A stretch of DNA of 64,000 bases from positions 2,318,001 to 2,382,000 of the forward strand of contig NZ_CP092333.1 in the NCBI RefSeq assembly GCF_018595675.2, written 5' to 3'. Shown here in pieces: positions 3,166-54,303 of the stretch (within the stretch, counting starts at the first letter, position 1; each line of letters starts with the position of its first letter). The position numbers and the translations under genes are program-made. Below the pieces are notes generated by a model. That model did no database searches. It had not been told where the DNA came from and saw nothing but the letters and a program-made list of their open reading frames with translations. Origin of the DNA: Flavihumibacter fluvii (GTDB taxonomy: Bacteria; Bacteroidota; Bacteroidia; Chitinophagales; Chitinophagaceae).

Positions 3166-3262
3166 ACTCTTTCAATTACCAGTAATATACAATTTACTGT
3201 TTTTAAAGCCTAGCTTTAATATGGATTCAAGGCAAAGGTCAGTAATCTATAAATAAACGCTT

Positions 3263-3949
3263 ATGTGTTTTTCCGCCACTGCCAGCTTTGGTGCTGGTAT
3301 CGTTCTTTCAACGATCGGGGTAGCTTCATTAAAAAAAGTCACACAACCTACCCAGAAATTCTTCGCCAGTATCCCATTGCTTTTTGCACTGCAACAAATC
3401 TCAGAAGGATTCTTATGGCTTTCACTGACCAATCCCAAATACGCCGGACTCCAGGCATTTACTACCTATACCTTCCTGTTCTTTGCACAGGTAATTTGGC
3501 CAACCCTGGTTCCCCTGAGTACCTGGCTGCTCGAAAAAAAATCCCAACAAAAACAAATACAGAAAATATTATTGGCCATCGGTATAATTGTATCTCTTTA
3601 CCTCGCCTATTGCCTGTTGAGCTACCCGGTTTCTGCCAGCATTGAAGGATACCATATTGCTTACCAGCAAAATTACCCGGCAACACTATATAATTATGGC
3701 GCTGTACTCTATATATTGGCTACCATAGCCCCAACACTTTTTTCTTCATTGACACGGATGTGGTGGTTGGGTGCAGCCATCCTGGTCTCATACATCATCA
3801 CTAAAATTTATTATACAGATTATTTTATTTCAGTCTGGTGCTTCTTTGCTTCTGTGATCAGCATTGCAGTATATATTGTGATAATAGAATTGAACAAACC
3901 TTCCGAAGATTTTAATTTGTCCACAGAACAATGGCCAGTGATCCATTAG
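3263..3949 (+). CDS. DUF6629-type multi-pass membrane protein
   Basis: 228 residues, mostly hydrophobic, with about six to seven membrane segments. It begins MCFSATASFGAG, which I recognise as the hallmark start of the DUF6629 family. No catalytic motif is visible and the family has no established function. The following gene, also a membrane protein, starts 16 bases later on the same strand, so the two are probably co-transcribed. Confidence 0.8.
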   Translation: MCFSATASFGAGIVLSTIGVASLKKVTQPTQKFFASIPLLFALQQISEGFLWLSLTNPKYAGLQAFTTYTFLFFAQVIWPTLVPLSTWLLEKKSQQKQIQKILLAIGIIVSLYLAYCLLSYPVSASIEGYHIAYQQNYPATLYNYGAVLYILATIAPTLFSSLTRMWWLGAAILVSYIITKIYYTDYFISVWCFFASVISIAVYIVIIELNKPSEDFNLSTEQWPVIH

Positions 3950-13951: not shown

Positions 13952-14386
13952 ATGCGTACAACAGACAATACAACAGCAACACCCCACTCTACCATTCCTC
14001 AAACCATTGGGCGTATCCTTCTCGGGTCATTCCTGCTGTTGGCAGGGATCGGCCATCTCTCCTGGTCCCGGACAGAATTCCTTGCGCAAGTACCCGAATG
14101 GTTACCCTTGAACGCAGACCTCGTGGTGATCTTGTCCGGCATTGTTGAAATTGGATTAGGTGCCGCATTAATTGTCCTGCCAAAACAAAAAATTAAAGCA
14201 GGCTGGATAGTAGCTGTTTTCTTCGTGCTTGTGTTTCCGGGTAATATTGCCCAATACCTTAACCATACACCGGCATTCGGTCTAGATACCGACCAGGCCC
14301 GGGCTATTCGCCTATTATTTCAACCGGTACTGATTATTTGGGCATTATGGTCCACAGGTGCATGGAGGGCATGGCGAAAAAACTGA
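13952..14386 (+). CDS. DoxX-family membrane protein
   Basis: 144 residues with four predicted helices. The first helix reads LLGSFLLLAGIGHLSW and the last part has NHTPAFGLDTDQARAIRL, matching DoxX-like proteins. Such proteins are linked to quinone-dependent or thiol redox processes in some organisms, but most members are uncharacterised. It probably shares a transcript with the serine hydrolase upstream; the decayed gene behind it overlaps its last 16 bases. Confidence 0.88.
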   Translation: MRTTDNTTATPHSTIPQTIGRILLGSFLLLAGIGHLSWSRTEFLAQVPEWLPLNADLVVILSGIVEIGLGAALIVLPKQKIKAGWIVAVFFVLVFPGNIAQYLNHTPAFGLDTDQARAIRLLFQPVLIIWALWSTGAWRAWRKN

Positions 14387-50289: not shown

Positions 50290-51408
50290 TCAATATTTCG
50301 AACTATTTGAACCGAAGATCAGGTCGATTGAAAAAGCATCACCGCTTAGATTTGTTCCGCCACCCGTGGAGTATTGTATGGCGTTATAACGGGCTTGCAG
50401 ACCAATATAAAAAGAATGCGTAACATAATAATTGAACCGCAATCCGGCATTGGCATTAAAGGACCCAATGGTCACGTGACTGGTATAGTATGGTTCGTAA
50501 TAATAATATTCGTAAGGATCGGGGGCAAAATCAAATCCATCCCAACCAATACCAGCCAGGAGCCCGAAATCATACCTTGCTGTTGAAACCAGGTAATAAT
50601 TGTAATCCAGGCCAATGTATCCCCCGAAATAATAATCGGTTGAATCCAGCTGGCCGCCTCTCTTTACTGCATATGGATTGGCGCTGTGCAAATAACGGAT
50701 CTGCATGGTCAGATCAAGCTGGTGATGCATATCTCTTAAGCCGGCATGAAATCCAAAAGATGGATGGACACCTAAGGTGGAAAGATTACCGGTAGGCAAC
50801 CATACACCCGTGCTTAAAGCCAGATCAAACCTGGGCCCTTTTCGTTCGGCGGCTAACTCATTCTTTAGCATAGCCGCAAATTCAGGATAGTTTGACCGGT
50901 TCTTTTCTATTTCTTTCCGGGGATTGTTAATTTCACCGCTTAACACCCTGCAAATAAATATTTCATTCTTATCCAGCTTTTTCTCTTTCAGTAAAAGCCT
51001 TGCCCAGGCAGCACTGAATTTATAAAATGAATTTTTAGGTGCCTCGGATCGGGCAGGTGAAGGAAAATCACCGGCATATCCGGTTAGCAGATCCAGTGTA
51101 GCACCGTTAGTATCCTGTGATAAGGAAAACTTATCTTCTTCCATGTCAAGCAGCATCCTGGTAATACTTACCTCGGGCATACCATAGCAGGATCTTTCCC
51201 ATATGCCAAGTGCTTTGTCCAGGGAATCAAGTGATTTTTTCCTATACAATCCCGGCAACACATCCATCGCATTCATAAGCATGGTCTGGCAATCCGGATG
51301 GCTCTTCGACATCTGTTCTTCTATGGTTTGGGCATACAAACAACTGGTAACAAAACTTAAATGAAACAGTATTATTATTTTGAGGTACTTAACCACCATT
51401 GCTTTCAT
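50290..51408 (-). CDS. Predicted outer-membrane beta-barrel protein, unknown
   Basis: 372 residues with a signal peptide ending near CLYAQT. The first half is helical and charged, the second half (from about residue 195) shows alternating hydrophobic strands with aromatic ends (LDLALSTGVWLP, YYFGGYIGLDYNYYLV) and a terminal aromatic-containing strand, as in 8- to 12-stranded barrels. A Tyr-rich loop (EYYYYEPYY) is present. Function unknown. Divergent from the iorA gene. Confidence 0.75.
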   Translation of the reverse strand: MKAMVVKYLKIIILFHLSFVTSCLYAQTIEEQMSKSHPDCQTMLMNAMDVLPGLYRKKSLDSLDKALGIWERSCYGMPEVSITRMLLDMEEDKFSLSQDTNGATLDLLTGYAGDFPSPARSEAPKNSFYKFSAAWARLLLKEKKLDKNEIFICRVLSGEINNPRKEIEKNRSNYPEFAAMLKNELAAERKGPRFDLALSTGVWLPTGNLSTLGVHPSFGFHAGLRDMHHQLDLTMQIRYLHSANPYAVKRGGQLDSTDYYFGGYIGLDYNYYLVSTARYDFGLLAGIGWDGFDFAPDPYEYYYYEPYYTSHVTIGSFNANAGLRFNYYVTHSFYIGLQARYNAIQYSTGGGTNLSGDAFSIDLIFGSNSSKY

Positions 51409-51492
51409 ACCTTCAAATTAGCCAACCCAGGCCAGTCGAATAATGACGAAAATCAGGTAAAACCCTAATTGTATCCCCTTACAGCGAAAAGC

Positions 51493-51538
51493 GTGTTTCC
51501 AGCATATTCATATATGGGAATGAATATGCTGGAAACAC
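51493..51538 (+). repeat. Perfect 19-base inverted repeat upstream of the molybdenum hydroxylase genes
   Basis: GTGTTTCCAGCATATTCAT at 51493-51511, eight-base loop ATATGGGA, and the exact reverse complement at 51520-51538, followed by ACTTTTATAT. It lies between the divergent barrel gene and iorA. It may be a leader hairpin/attenuator or an operator. Confidence 0.8.
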
Positions 51539-51576
51539 ACTTTTATATGCTTACATTAGGGGTACAACCCCTATTT

Positions 51577-52032
51577 ATGCCTTCCTACAATTTAAACATC
51601 AACAACAAGACCTACAAAGCCGATGTGGATGCTGATACCCCATTGCTCTGGGTGCTGCGTGACATACTCGATCTCACCGGAACAAAATTTGGCTGTGGTG
51701 TGGGAAGCTGCGGCGCATGCACCATCCTCTTCAATGGGAAGTCTGTGCGCAGCTGCCAGTTGCAGGTCCAGGCCGTTGGTGAGGCTAAGATCACTACAAT
51801 TGAAGGTCTTAGTGAAGATGGTTCACACCCGGTACAAAAAGCCTGGGAGAAAGCCGGGGTACCACAATGCGGCTATTGCCAGTCAGGGCAAATCATGACG
51901 GTTGCCGGCCTGCTCAATACAAATAAGCACCCCACAGAAGAACAGATCAGTACGGCGATGGCAGGCAATCTCTGCAGGTGCGGAACCTACCACCGGATCA
52001 AAGAAGCGATACTGGAAGCAATAGCAAAATAA
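51577..52032 (+). CDS. iorA: [2Fe-2S] subunit of a molybdenum hydroxylase (isoquinoline 1-oxidoreductase alpha type)
   Basis: 151 residues. The plant-type ferredoxin cluster ligands are in GCGVGSCGACTILF with a distal Cys in RSCQLQ; the second cluster ligands are in QCGYCQSGQIM and NLCRCGTYHRI. It relays electrons from the molybdopterin subunit encoded next. The frame is open upstream to 51469, but that part overlaps the inverted repeat; the ATG at 51577 starts with the expected MPSYNLNINN. Confidence 0.94.
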   Translation: MPSYNLNINNKTYKADVDADTPLLWVLRDILDLTGTKFGCGVGSCGACTILFNGKSVRSCQLQVQAVGEAKITTIEGLSEDGSHPVQKAWEKAGVPQCGYCQSGQIMTVAGLLNTNKHPTEEQISTAMAGNLCRCGTYHRIKEAILEAIAK

Positions 52033-52042
52033 AGTCCTCCCC

Positions 52043-52057
52043 CCCCATTGAATGGGG
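52043..52057 (+). repeat. C-tract and short inverted repeat between the two hydroxylase subunits
   Basis: Eight consecutive C at 52039-52046, the last four being part of CCCCATTGAATGGGG, a small self-complementary hairpin. It separates iorA and iorB by 39 bases. Confidence 0.6.
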
Positions 52058-52071
52058 CTTCAAATTTTTAT

Positions 52072-54303
52072 ATGAATACCAAATTGCATAGACGCCATTT
52101 CATCAAACTCAGTTCAGCCGCAGGCGGCAGCCTTATCCTTGGCATGATGCTGCCAATGGCTTGCAAAACAGGCACCAAAGTGGAAGTGGCAGCATGCGAC
52201 CCTTTGCAGCCTATGCCTTACCTGAAAATTGAATCAACCGGCGATATTACCATATATTTTGCCCGCGCAGAAATGGGCCAGGGCGTAAACACCTCGCTGC
52301 CAATGATACTTGCGGAAGAGCTCGACGCCGACTGGGCCAAAGTGAAAACCGACCTGCTGCCATATGGCGTAACAATTGAAAGGGCCGACAAGCCTGCATT
52401 TGGTGGCTACTATACCACCGGCGGGAGCCAAAGCGTATTAACCGACTGGAACGAAATGCGCAGGGTGGGCGCTACTGCGAAAGCTATGCTGGTAAGTGCT
52501 GCCGCAAAAAAATGGAATATTGCGGAATCTGATTGCAGCACAGCCAATAGTGTGGTCACCAATACAAAGTCGAAAGAAACATTAACCTATGCTGAACTCG
52601 TTTGCGATGCCATTAAGCTGCCCGTTCCAAAAGATGTGAAACTTAAAGAGGCCAAAGACTTCACCCTCATAGGAAAGCCTGCCCCAAGGAAAAACCTGGG
52701 TAACATGATCACCGGCAAAACAAAATATGGCATCGATGTAAAAGTTGACGGCATGGTATATGCCGTTGTTGAACGCTGCCCCGTGCTGCAGGGAAAAGTA
52801 AAATCATTTGACGACAGCGCCTGTAAAAATATAAGTGGTTATTTAAAAGCCATACAGTTCGACGGTGCAGGGGCACCCATGCATATACATTCCGGCGTGG
52901 CCATCCTGGCAACAAGTATATGGAGCGCCATGAAAGCCAGAAAGCTGTTGAAAGTGGAATGGGATGAAGCCGGCCATGGTAACGAATCCACAGATGAACT
53001 GTTTAAAACATTTGAATCAAGATCGAAGAACAAACCTGCTATTGAAGTCTTTAAGAAAGGCGATCCGGCTAAAGTGAAAGCAACCGCAGTGAATACCCTG
53101 GAGTCGGCGTTTGCTGCACCCTTCCTTGCCCACGGAACCATGGAACCCATCAATGTCATTGCTCAGGTGCAGAACGGTAAAGCGGAATTTTGGTGCGGTA
53201 ACCAGTTCCCTGAATTTGCCCCTCCTACACTTGCCACTGAACTGGGCATTGACCCCAAAAATATACAGATCAACCTGGCCTATATCGGTGGCGGATTTGG
53301 AAGAAGGCTCTTTTTCGATTATATGCTGGAAGCGGCAAAGATTGCCAGGCAATACGACAAGCCCGTTAAGGTTATCTGGGACAGGGTGGATGATATCCGC
53401 AACGATGCATTCAGGCCTGCCAATTACCACCGTATGAAAGCATCCTGGGACGATACAGGAAAACTTTTGTCCTGGCAGCACCATTATGTTGGCAGCTCTA
53501 TCAACCTGATGCTGGAAGGGCCGGATGCAAAAGTTATCGGGGATATGAATGGCGGTGCTACCGCCGATTTCTGGTACGACATTCCCAATGTAAAAACCGG
53601 GTTCACACATGTTGATTTTAACCTCCAGCGCGGCTGGCTGCGTGCTGTGGAAATCAATATCAATGTTTTTCCTGTTGAATCTTTCATTGACGAATTGGCT
53701 GTAAAACTGAAAAAGGACCCGGTGCAATTCAGGCTGGACCTGCTTTCCACGATGCCAAAGCGCATGACCGAATACCCATTCCAGGATCCGCAGCGCATAG
53801 CCGGCGTGTTGAAACTCGTTGCGGATAAAATAGGTTACGCACAACCCTTACAACCCAACCATTATATAGGTGTGGCCACACACCATTTCTCCTTCTGCCC
53901 TACTTATGTAGCGCATGCTATAGAAATTGAAATGCTTGCCCCTAAGAAATTCAGGATAGTAAAAGTGGTAGCAGCGGTAGACTGTGGCATTGTAGTGAAT
54001 CCCGATGGTTTGCTTAACCAGATGCAGGGAGCCCTTGCCTTCGCGCTTACCCAGGCACTCAAAGGCGAGATCACCATAAAAAATGGCCGCGTTGAACAGG
54101 ATAGTTTTTTTAATTACGAATTGTTGCGCTATCCTGAAATGCCCCCCATTGACGTGCATGTGGTACAAAGCGCAGAACCCTGCGGCGGTATTGGCGAAGT
54201 GGGTATGCCTACTGTTGCCCCTGCCCTATGCAATGCCTTAGCCGCAGCAGGTCAACGGCCTTATCGTTTGCCTTTGAAGAAAGATGGATATGAATGGGTG
54301 TGA
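52072..54303 (+). CDS. iorB: Molybdopterin-binding subunit of a molybdenum hydroxylase (isoquinoline 1-oxidoreductase beta type)
   Basis: 743 residues with a twin-arginine signal (RRHFIKLSS, residues 6-14) and an early Cys in LPMACKTG; the enzyme should be exported folded with its cofactor. The core has AEMGQGVNTSLPMILAEELD, GGGFGRRLFFDYM and the active-site region PCGGIGEVGMPTVAPALCNA with its Glu. It would hydroxylate an aldehyde or N-heterocycle in the periplasm. No membrane cytochrome partner is encoded beside it. The usual substrate family is aldehydes or isoquinolines, but this one is not known. Confidence 0.92.
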   Translation: MNTKLHRRHFIKLSSAAGGSLILGMMLPMACKTGTKVEVAACDPLQPMPYLKIESTGDITIYFARAEMGQGVNTSLPMILAEELDADWAKVKTDLLPYGVTIERADKPAFGGYYTTGGSQSVLTDWNEMRRVGATAKAMLVSAAAKKWNIAESDCSTANSVVTNTKSKETLTYAELVCDAIKLPVPKDVKLKEAKDFTLIGKPAPRKNLGNMITGKTKYGIDVKVDGMVYAVVERCPVLQGKVKSFDDSACKNISGYLKAIQFDGAGAPMHIHSGVAILATSIWSAMKARKLLKVEWDEAGHGNESTDELFKTFESRSKNKPAIEVFKKGDPAKVKATAVNTLESAFAAPFLAHGTMEPINVIAQVQNGKAEFWCGNQFPEFAPPTLATELGIDPKNIQINLAYIGGGFGRRLFFDYMLEAAKIARQYDKPVKVIWDRVDDIRNDAFRPANYHRMKASWDDTGKLLSWQHHYVGSSINLMLEGPDAKVIGDMNGGATADFWYDIPNVKTGFTHVDFNLQRGWLRAVEININVFPVESFIDELAVKLKKDPVQFRLDLLSTMPKRMTEYPFQDPQRIAGVLKLVADKIGYAQPLQPNHYIGVATHHFSFCPTYVAHAIEIEMLAPKKFRIVKVVAAVDCGIVVNPDGLLNQMQGALAFALTQALKGEITIKNGRVEQDSFFNYELLRYPEMPPIDVHVVQSAEPCGGIGEVGMPTVAPALCNALAAAGQRPYRLPLKKDGYEWV

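Follow-up and report, generated by a model that had tools for sequence, protein, structure and literature searches.

The DNA analyzed here (the window) is a 64,000-nt stretch of the Flavihumibacter fluvii genome that contains a divergent gene pair. On the minus strand, an ORF of 372 aa (positions 50290 to 51408, start at 51408) has no Pfam or NCBIfam match at an E value of ≤0.001. The plus strand encodes a molybdenum hydroxylase, consisting of an iorA-like [2Fe-2S] subunit with Fer2 and Fer2_2 domains (51577 to 52032, ATG at 51577) and an iorB-like molybdopterin-binding subunit with MoCoBD_1 and MoCoBD_2 domains (52075 to 54303). None of the NCBIfam models listed for the two subunits, including all 11 for the iorB-like one, is matched at its cut-off, and therefore no substrate was assigned to the hydroxylase. 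IorB is 85% and 84% identical to proteins of two other genera (G063 and G149), and in the same search five other members of the genus had no IorB match at an E value of ≤1e-250. This patchy distribution of the hydroxylase pair (51577 to 54303) may reflect horizontal transfer or loss. Both G063 and G149 also encode a homolog of the 372-aa protein, on a contig other than that of the hydroxylase pair.

The 168-nt gap between the minus-strand ORF and the iorA-like gene harbors a long hairpin. In agreement with a preliminary description of the locus, which reported a perfect 19-base inverted repeat with an eight-base loop, positions 51493 to 51511 and 51520 to 51538 are exact reverse complements of 19 nt each, separated by 8 nt (51512 to 51519). 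The repeat is longer than described, with 25-nt arms (left arm, 51487 to 51511; right arm, 51520 to 51544) in which 24 of the 25 positions pair. The single mismatch (51492/51539) opposes C to A in plus-strand RNA and G to U in minus-strand RNA, so that the latter folds without a break. The left arm has an AAAA end and the right arm a TTTT end. A short T run had been noted after the repeat; it is present, but it comprises TTTT only (51541 to 51544) and pairs with AAAA at positions 51487 to 51490, which makes it part of the stem. It is followed by ATAT. With 7 G-C pairs among the 19 of the perfect core, the stem is not G+C-rich. The predicted fold has a minimum free energy (MFE) of −48.6 kcal/mol on the plus strand (z, −7.4) and −54.1 kcal/mol for 121 nt on the minus strand (z, −8.1).

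The base of the hairpin ends 32 nt before the ATG of iorA. As first described, the flanking genes diverge, and the ORF (50290 to 51408) and iorA (ATG at 51577) leave the hairpin between them. Its placement outside coding sequence holds with one qualification: the iorA frame is open upstream through the hairpin (51469 to 51576), with a TTG at 51469 and in-frame ATG codons at 51514, 51520, and 51526, located in the loop and right arm, and an extension in this frame would cross the repeat. The ortholog in a syntenic relative from the same genus (G296, discussed below) starts with MLMPTYN, and the upstream extension is not kept there. Automatic annotation may thus add an unconserved N-terminal extension to iorA.

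No other perfect repeat in the 64-kb window has arms of ≥14 nt (loop of 3 to 30 nt), and 512 kb of second-order Markov sequence contained no perfect repeat above 11 nt (loop of 3 to 20 nt). These results, together with the z score of −7.4 on the plus strand, bear out the initial view that the repeat is too long to have arisen by chance. To place it in a genomic context, forty 20-kb stretches were sampled in addition to the window, amounting to 864 kb of the 5.0-Mb genome. This sample holds further perfect repeats, whose arms measure 27, 22, 21, and 19 nt; the 22-nt repeat consists of reiterated GTAAACGGTGAAC-like units. In this genome, long hairpins are habitual, and that of the window is not unique in kind.

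With a minimum score of 12 (+1 per match and −2 per mismatch), the 864 kb contain 37 hairpins, of which 6 are coding and 31 non-coding. Among the latter, 26 follow an ORF of at least 80 aa at a distance of up to 120 nt, a class that accounts for 36.9% of the non-coding positions (simple binomial P of ~1e-7; ORFs were called mechanically, making gene ends approximate). The automatic gene-end rule leaves five non-coding hairpins, namely that of the window and four others. Manual inspection placed one of these 9 nt after a tRNA-Cys gene and another 16 nt after an ORF ending at 14198 that the rule had missed, and which we take to be rsmG-like from reading its protein. A third (L144:16943-17012) belongs to a dispersed hairpin family. 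The fourth (L087:14855-14888) is preceded by a short reading frame that an in-frame stop interrupts and is possibly a second hairpin without a gene end. For the hairpin of the window, the mechanical rule puts the nearest ORF end that is directed towards it at a distance of 7,076 nt, and the window contains no tRNA or Rfam gene. This poses the puzzle of the locus: a hairpin of the gene-end type is found where no gene ends.

The gene-end bias points to a function for most members of the class. A-rich and T-rich ends, as in the hairpin of the window, occur in 15 of the 26 gene-end hairpins; they also occur in 3 of the 6 coding hairpins, so that the ends alone are weak evidence. Long stems without a U-tract are found among the gene-end hairpins as well. 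Three intergenic hairpins of the same genome are similar in having long perfect arms and a short loop (L151:15053-15110, 27 nt; L151:14214-14258, 21 nt; and L072:7769-7811, 19 nt). They differ from the hairpin of the window in that an ORF ends 3 to 45 nt before each of them. No second full copy of the 21-nt hairpin (L151:14214-14258) was found. That at L151:15053-15110 is a perfect palindrome with a 4-nt loop, located 3 nt past a peptidase-like ORF, and has no U-tract.

Based on these similarities, our leading reading, to which we give somewhat less than an even chance, is that of a bidirectional, terminator-type stem-loop, specific to this lineage and present once in the genome, which was stranded or placed between divergent genes. 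Transcription from either side would fold a 24- to 25-bp hairpin, which could act as an intrinsic-type terminator or roadblock and insulate both divergent units. The hairpin was among the hits on both strands in a loose scan for terminator-like sites, which returned 5 sites in 2 kb, versus a mean of 2.1 (standard deviation, 1.6) in shuffled sequence. With bidirectional Rho-independent terminators, it shares the A-run and T-run ends, terminator-like properties on both strands, and the build of the gene-end hairpins of its own genome. It differs from them in its divergent neighbors, the missing gene end, the short U-run inside the stem, and the long A+T-rich stem. Of the features of a terminator, a stable RNA stem-loop is present on both strands; the U-rich tract after the stem is limited to the TTTT paired inside the 25-bp stem and the ATAT behind it; and the genes on both sides point away. 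The missing gene end, the short U-run, and the core that is not G+C-rich argue against a terminator. A literature search returned nothing on intrinsic terminators with a hairpin and U-tract in Bacteroidetes, and for Rho-independent terminators in Bacteroides it yielded a Clostridium study only.

Copies of the hairpin were sought in its own genome and beyond. In a BLAST search of the own genome, the 140-nt region retrieved itself only, on both strands, besides matches with E values of ≥2. A covariance model built from both strands found, in 15 genomes of the genus, the hairpin itself and a weak 30-nt match in G298 (E value of 0.07; 0.095 on the other strand). Of 294 genomes of the family, 46 gave BLAST matches with E values of ≤0.1, the own genome included; those in other genomes span 17 to 38 query bases (best E value, 9.9e-4) and were treated as noise. 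Plasmids and phages contained no copy. The exact 19-nt arm has four single hits in GTDB genome contigs, all in other taxa, which is of the order of the ~2 random hits that we estimate for a sequence of this length in 257 Gb, and a 17-nt part of the arm has eight single hits in viral contigs; none of these GTDB or viral contigs carries the second exact arm. A dispersed or REP-like repeat, for which the preliminary description had proposed a search of the genome for many copies of the arm, is consequently rejected: the hairpin is present once in its own genome and has no sequence copy in the 15 genus and 294 family genomes.

These searches also bear on the suggestion that the repeat is the scar of a mobile element or a lone miniature inverted-repeat element, which we now regard as improbable. 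The outer sequences TTGTATCCCC and GGGGTACAA can pair, and by eye CCCTA flanks both sides. However, 640 of 5,000 shuffles reached this outer pairing in a local test, which is not significant, and an in-register fold test was borderline (96 of 2,000 on the plus strand and 146 of 2,000 on the minus strand). Supporting copies are missing from all genomes, plasmids, and phages searched, and the hairpin thereby lacks the multiple copies expected of a MITE or insertion-sequence remnant.

The closest comparison is provided by G296. The 372-aa neighbor has a match in one of the 14 other genus genomes, with 73% identity in G296, which was the sole genome where the divergent pair was found again. DNA similarity to G296 covers the neighbor gene and an upstream block (51409 to 51469), ends before the hairpin, and resumes at 51575; its end at 51469 coincides with the edge of the outer pair, in favor of a mobile origin. 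The gap in G296 measures ~1.1 kb and contains a 147-aa ORF and an ORF of ~70 aa, the shorter one identified by eye, both directed towards iorA. It holds no hairpin with a score of ≥8 (loop of up to 20 nt) and no arms of 10 nt (loop of up to 120 nt). The 147-aa protein has matches in 3 of the 15 genus genomes, G296 itself included, and no match in the genome of the window. Because the comparable locus has two more ORFs in its gap, the likeliest origin of the hairpin would be a terminator-type structure stranded when neighboring DNA was lost or rearranged. On the other hand, G296 shows no apparent candidate for an ancestral hairpin, which speaks against a stranded relic.

Alternatively, the repeat could be a young, functionless palindrome that arose by quasi-palindrome mutation, a template switch during replication in which one arm served as the template for the other. 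Template switching is described as a source of inverted repeats (PMC4060949; PMC3820800), and inverted repeats are reported to be over-represented between bacterial genes (PMC4060949). The near-perfect arms, the single copy, and the lack of conservation in the relatives searched are as in such quasi-palindromes. The locus departs from them in that no ancestral single arm is shown: neither arm aligns significantly with the G296 interval, and the best alignment (right arm, plus strand) was reached by 40 of 500 shuffles. Given also the function suggested for most hairpins of this class, an accident of this type is unlikely here.

The position of the hairpin relative to candidate promoters was evaluated against the Bacteroidetes consensus, which is given as TAnnTTTG at −7 and TTTG at about −33 (PMC7366714), with TAnnTTGY as a variant of the −7 box (PMC9723704). 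On the plus strand, the promoter scan detected two weak −7-like boxes (5/6), both downstream of the hairpin, and none upstream of it. The first, TACATTAG (51552 to 51559), lies between the hairpin and the iorA start, where it is a putative promoter element only; its upstream element would fall in the right arm. The second, TATTTATG at 51572, overlaps the iorA start codon. In G296 and G149, alone among the six relatives checked, a −7-like TAACTTTA precedes iorA at −46 and −45, respectively, and the right arm occupies the matching position in the window. For the minus-strand gene, a possible −7 box (TAATTTGA, 51413 to 51420, minus strand; TAATTTGC in G296) was recognized by eye and is absent from the automatic scan. 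It is 5 nt from the start codon, at about which transcription would then start; if TAATTTGA is the promoter, the hairpin is outside the mRNA of this gene.

These positions are relevant to the earlier idea of a leader attenuator. Under this reading, iorA would be driven by a promoter before position 51487, placing the hairpin in the 5′ leader, where under some condition it would terminate or slow transcription or mask the in-frame start codons that lie in the loop and near it. Its proximity to the iorA ATG, its location at the site of the TAACTTTA box of G296 and G149, and the ATG codons in the loop and right arm are in line with this, as is an unrelated repeat before iorA in G112 (see below). 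Nevertheless, the plus-strand boxes are all downstream, MFE and centroid folds show one strong stem only, no Rfam model matches the window at its gathering score, and the hairpin sequence is not conserved in orthologs, five of the six having no comparable repeat. The attenuator thus stays in contention as a serious, if unlikely, alternative. A known RNA family was rejected separately, as no Rfam match reached its gathering score; the 13 matches below the cut-off are mostly to eukaryotic or viral microRNA models.

Besides the G296 gap, the 500 nt upstream of iorA were read in five orthologs from other genera, giving six in total. No arms of ≥10 nt (loop of up to 120 nt) were present in G063, G149, G141, and G070. 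In G112, positions −147 to −62 before iorA (L141, about 3190 to 3275) form a perfect repeat whose 19-nt arms are separated by 48 nt and are unrelated in sequence to the hairpin of the window; shuffles of this stretch gave at most 13 nt. The G112 repeat also occupies a divergent gap, towards a 248-aa ORF starting at L141:3364, and the 372-aa neighbor is not beside this ortholog. A comparable repeat is thereby found in one of the six orthologs. Within the genus, iorA-like matches other than the best of G296 are at most 63% identical and are probably mostly paralogs. Of 29 genus iorA-like loci whose 5′ side was read, a set that includes two additional loci from the own genome as well as the ortholog in G296, three carry arms of ≥10 nt there (loop of up to 120 nt): L050 with 10 nt, L066 with 15 nt, and L067 with 19 nt. 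A 17-nt repeat at L063 is on the 3′ side of the gene.

The repeats at L066 (G300) and L067 (G231) are likewise in divergent gaps before iorA-like paralogs. The L067 hairpin (L067:2005-2072) belongs to a dispersed G+C-rich family with GGTGGCACC-type units, to which L066 is assigned by likeness. This family has matches in 8 of the 15 genus genomes and is very abundant in G231, G300, and G008, with at least 80 matches in G231 and at least 72 in G300, both strands counted. At L066 and L067, it shares with the hairpin of the window the placement in a divergent gap ahead of an iorA-like gene; it differs in its G+C-rich, unrelated sequence and dispersed nature. Thus, iorA-like genes recurrently have a long repeat in the divergent gap in front of them; the sequences differ, and at least in G231 the repeat is a dispersed element. 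A mobile scar gains from the presence of this family in such gaps, and loses from the fact that the family has no match in the genome of the window.

The preliminary description had further suggested an operator shared by the two divergent genes, that is, a DNA site for a common regulator. The divergent gap is a suitable location for such a site. Complementarity over 19 to 25 nt is, however, longer than the usual half-sites of dimeric regulators, no similar site is found elsewhere in the genome, and the same sequence is absent before the orthologs. Because of the arm length and the absence of the sequence elsewhere, we consider an operator very doubtful.

Taken together, the G112 repeat and the dispersed family of the relatives weigh down the terminator and template-switch readings and raise those of a mobile scar and of an insulator. 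For the latter, the bidirectional hairpin would be a transcription insulator between divergent genes that protects each of them against divergent or antisense transcripts from its neighbor; it would have displaced the iorA promoter box of the ancestor and made a new promoter necessary next to the hairpin. On this view, the unrelated repeats in divergent gaps of G112, G231, and G300 would have arisen independently as similar solutions, and the G112 repeat fits a local role better than a stranded relic. Even so, we judge a dedicated insulator rather unlikely, and the terminator-type stem-loop remains our preferred, tentative explanation. If the hairpin terminates transcription in both directions, it would represent a terminator-type hairpin that acts outside a gene end and is ignored by annotation pipelines. 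Otherwise, a locally striking repeat becomes ordinary against its own genome, where such long hairpins recur and mostly mark gene ends.

Two other groups of related hairpins were encountered in this genome. A dispersed intergenic hairpin family of ~73 bp (CCTCTTTGGG...CCAAAGAGG) is present in five full copies (G000:C1 at 607573, 741940, 1422237, 1655955, and 2192840) and a partial one (3364207); in the sample it is represented by L144:16940-17015 and L073:7576-7645. Four full copies are 90 to 92% identical to the query copy. This family resembles the hairpin of the window as a long intergenic hairpin and differs in copy number, with five full copies and a partial one versus a single copy. Finally, the hairpins at L160:2356-2382 and L161:19950-19976, one coding and one of the gene-end class, have the arms TGTCTGACA and TGTCAGACA in common and differ in their inner bases.
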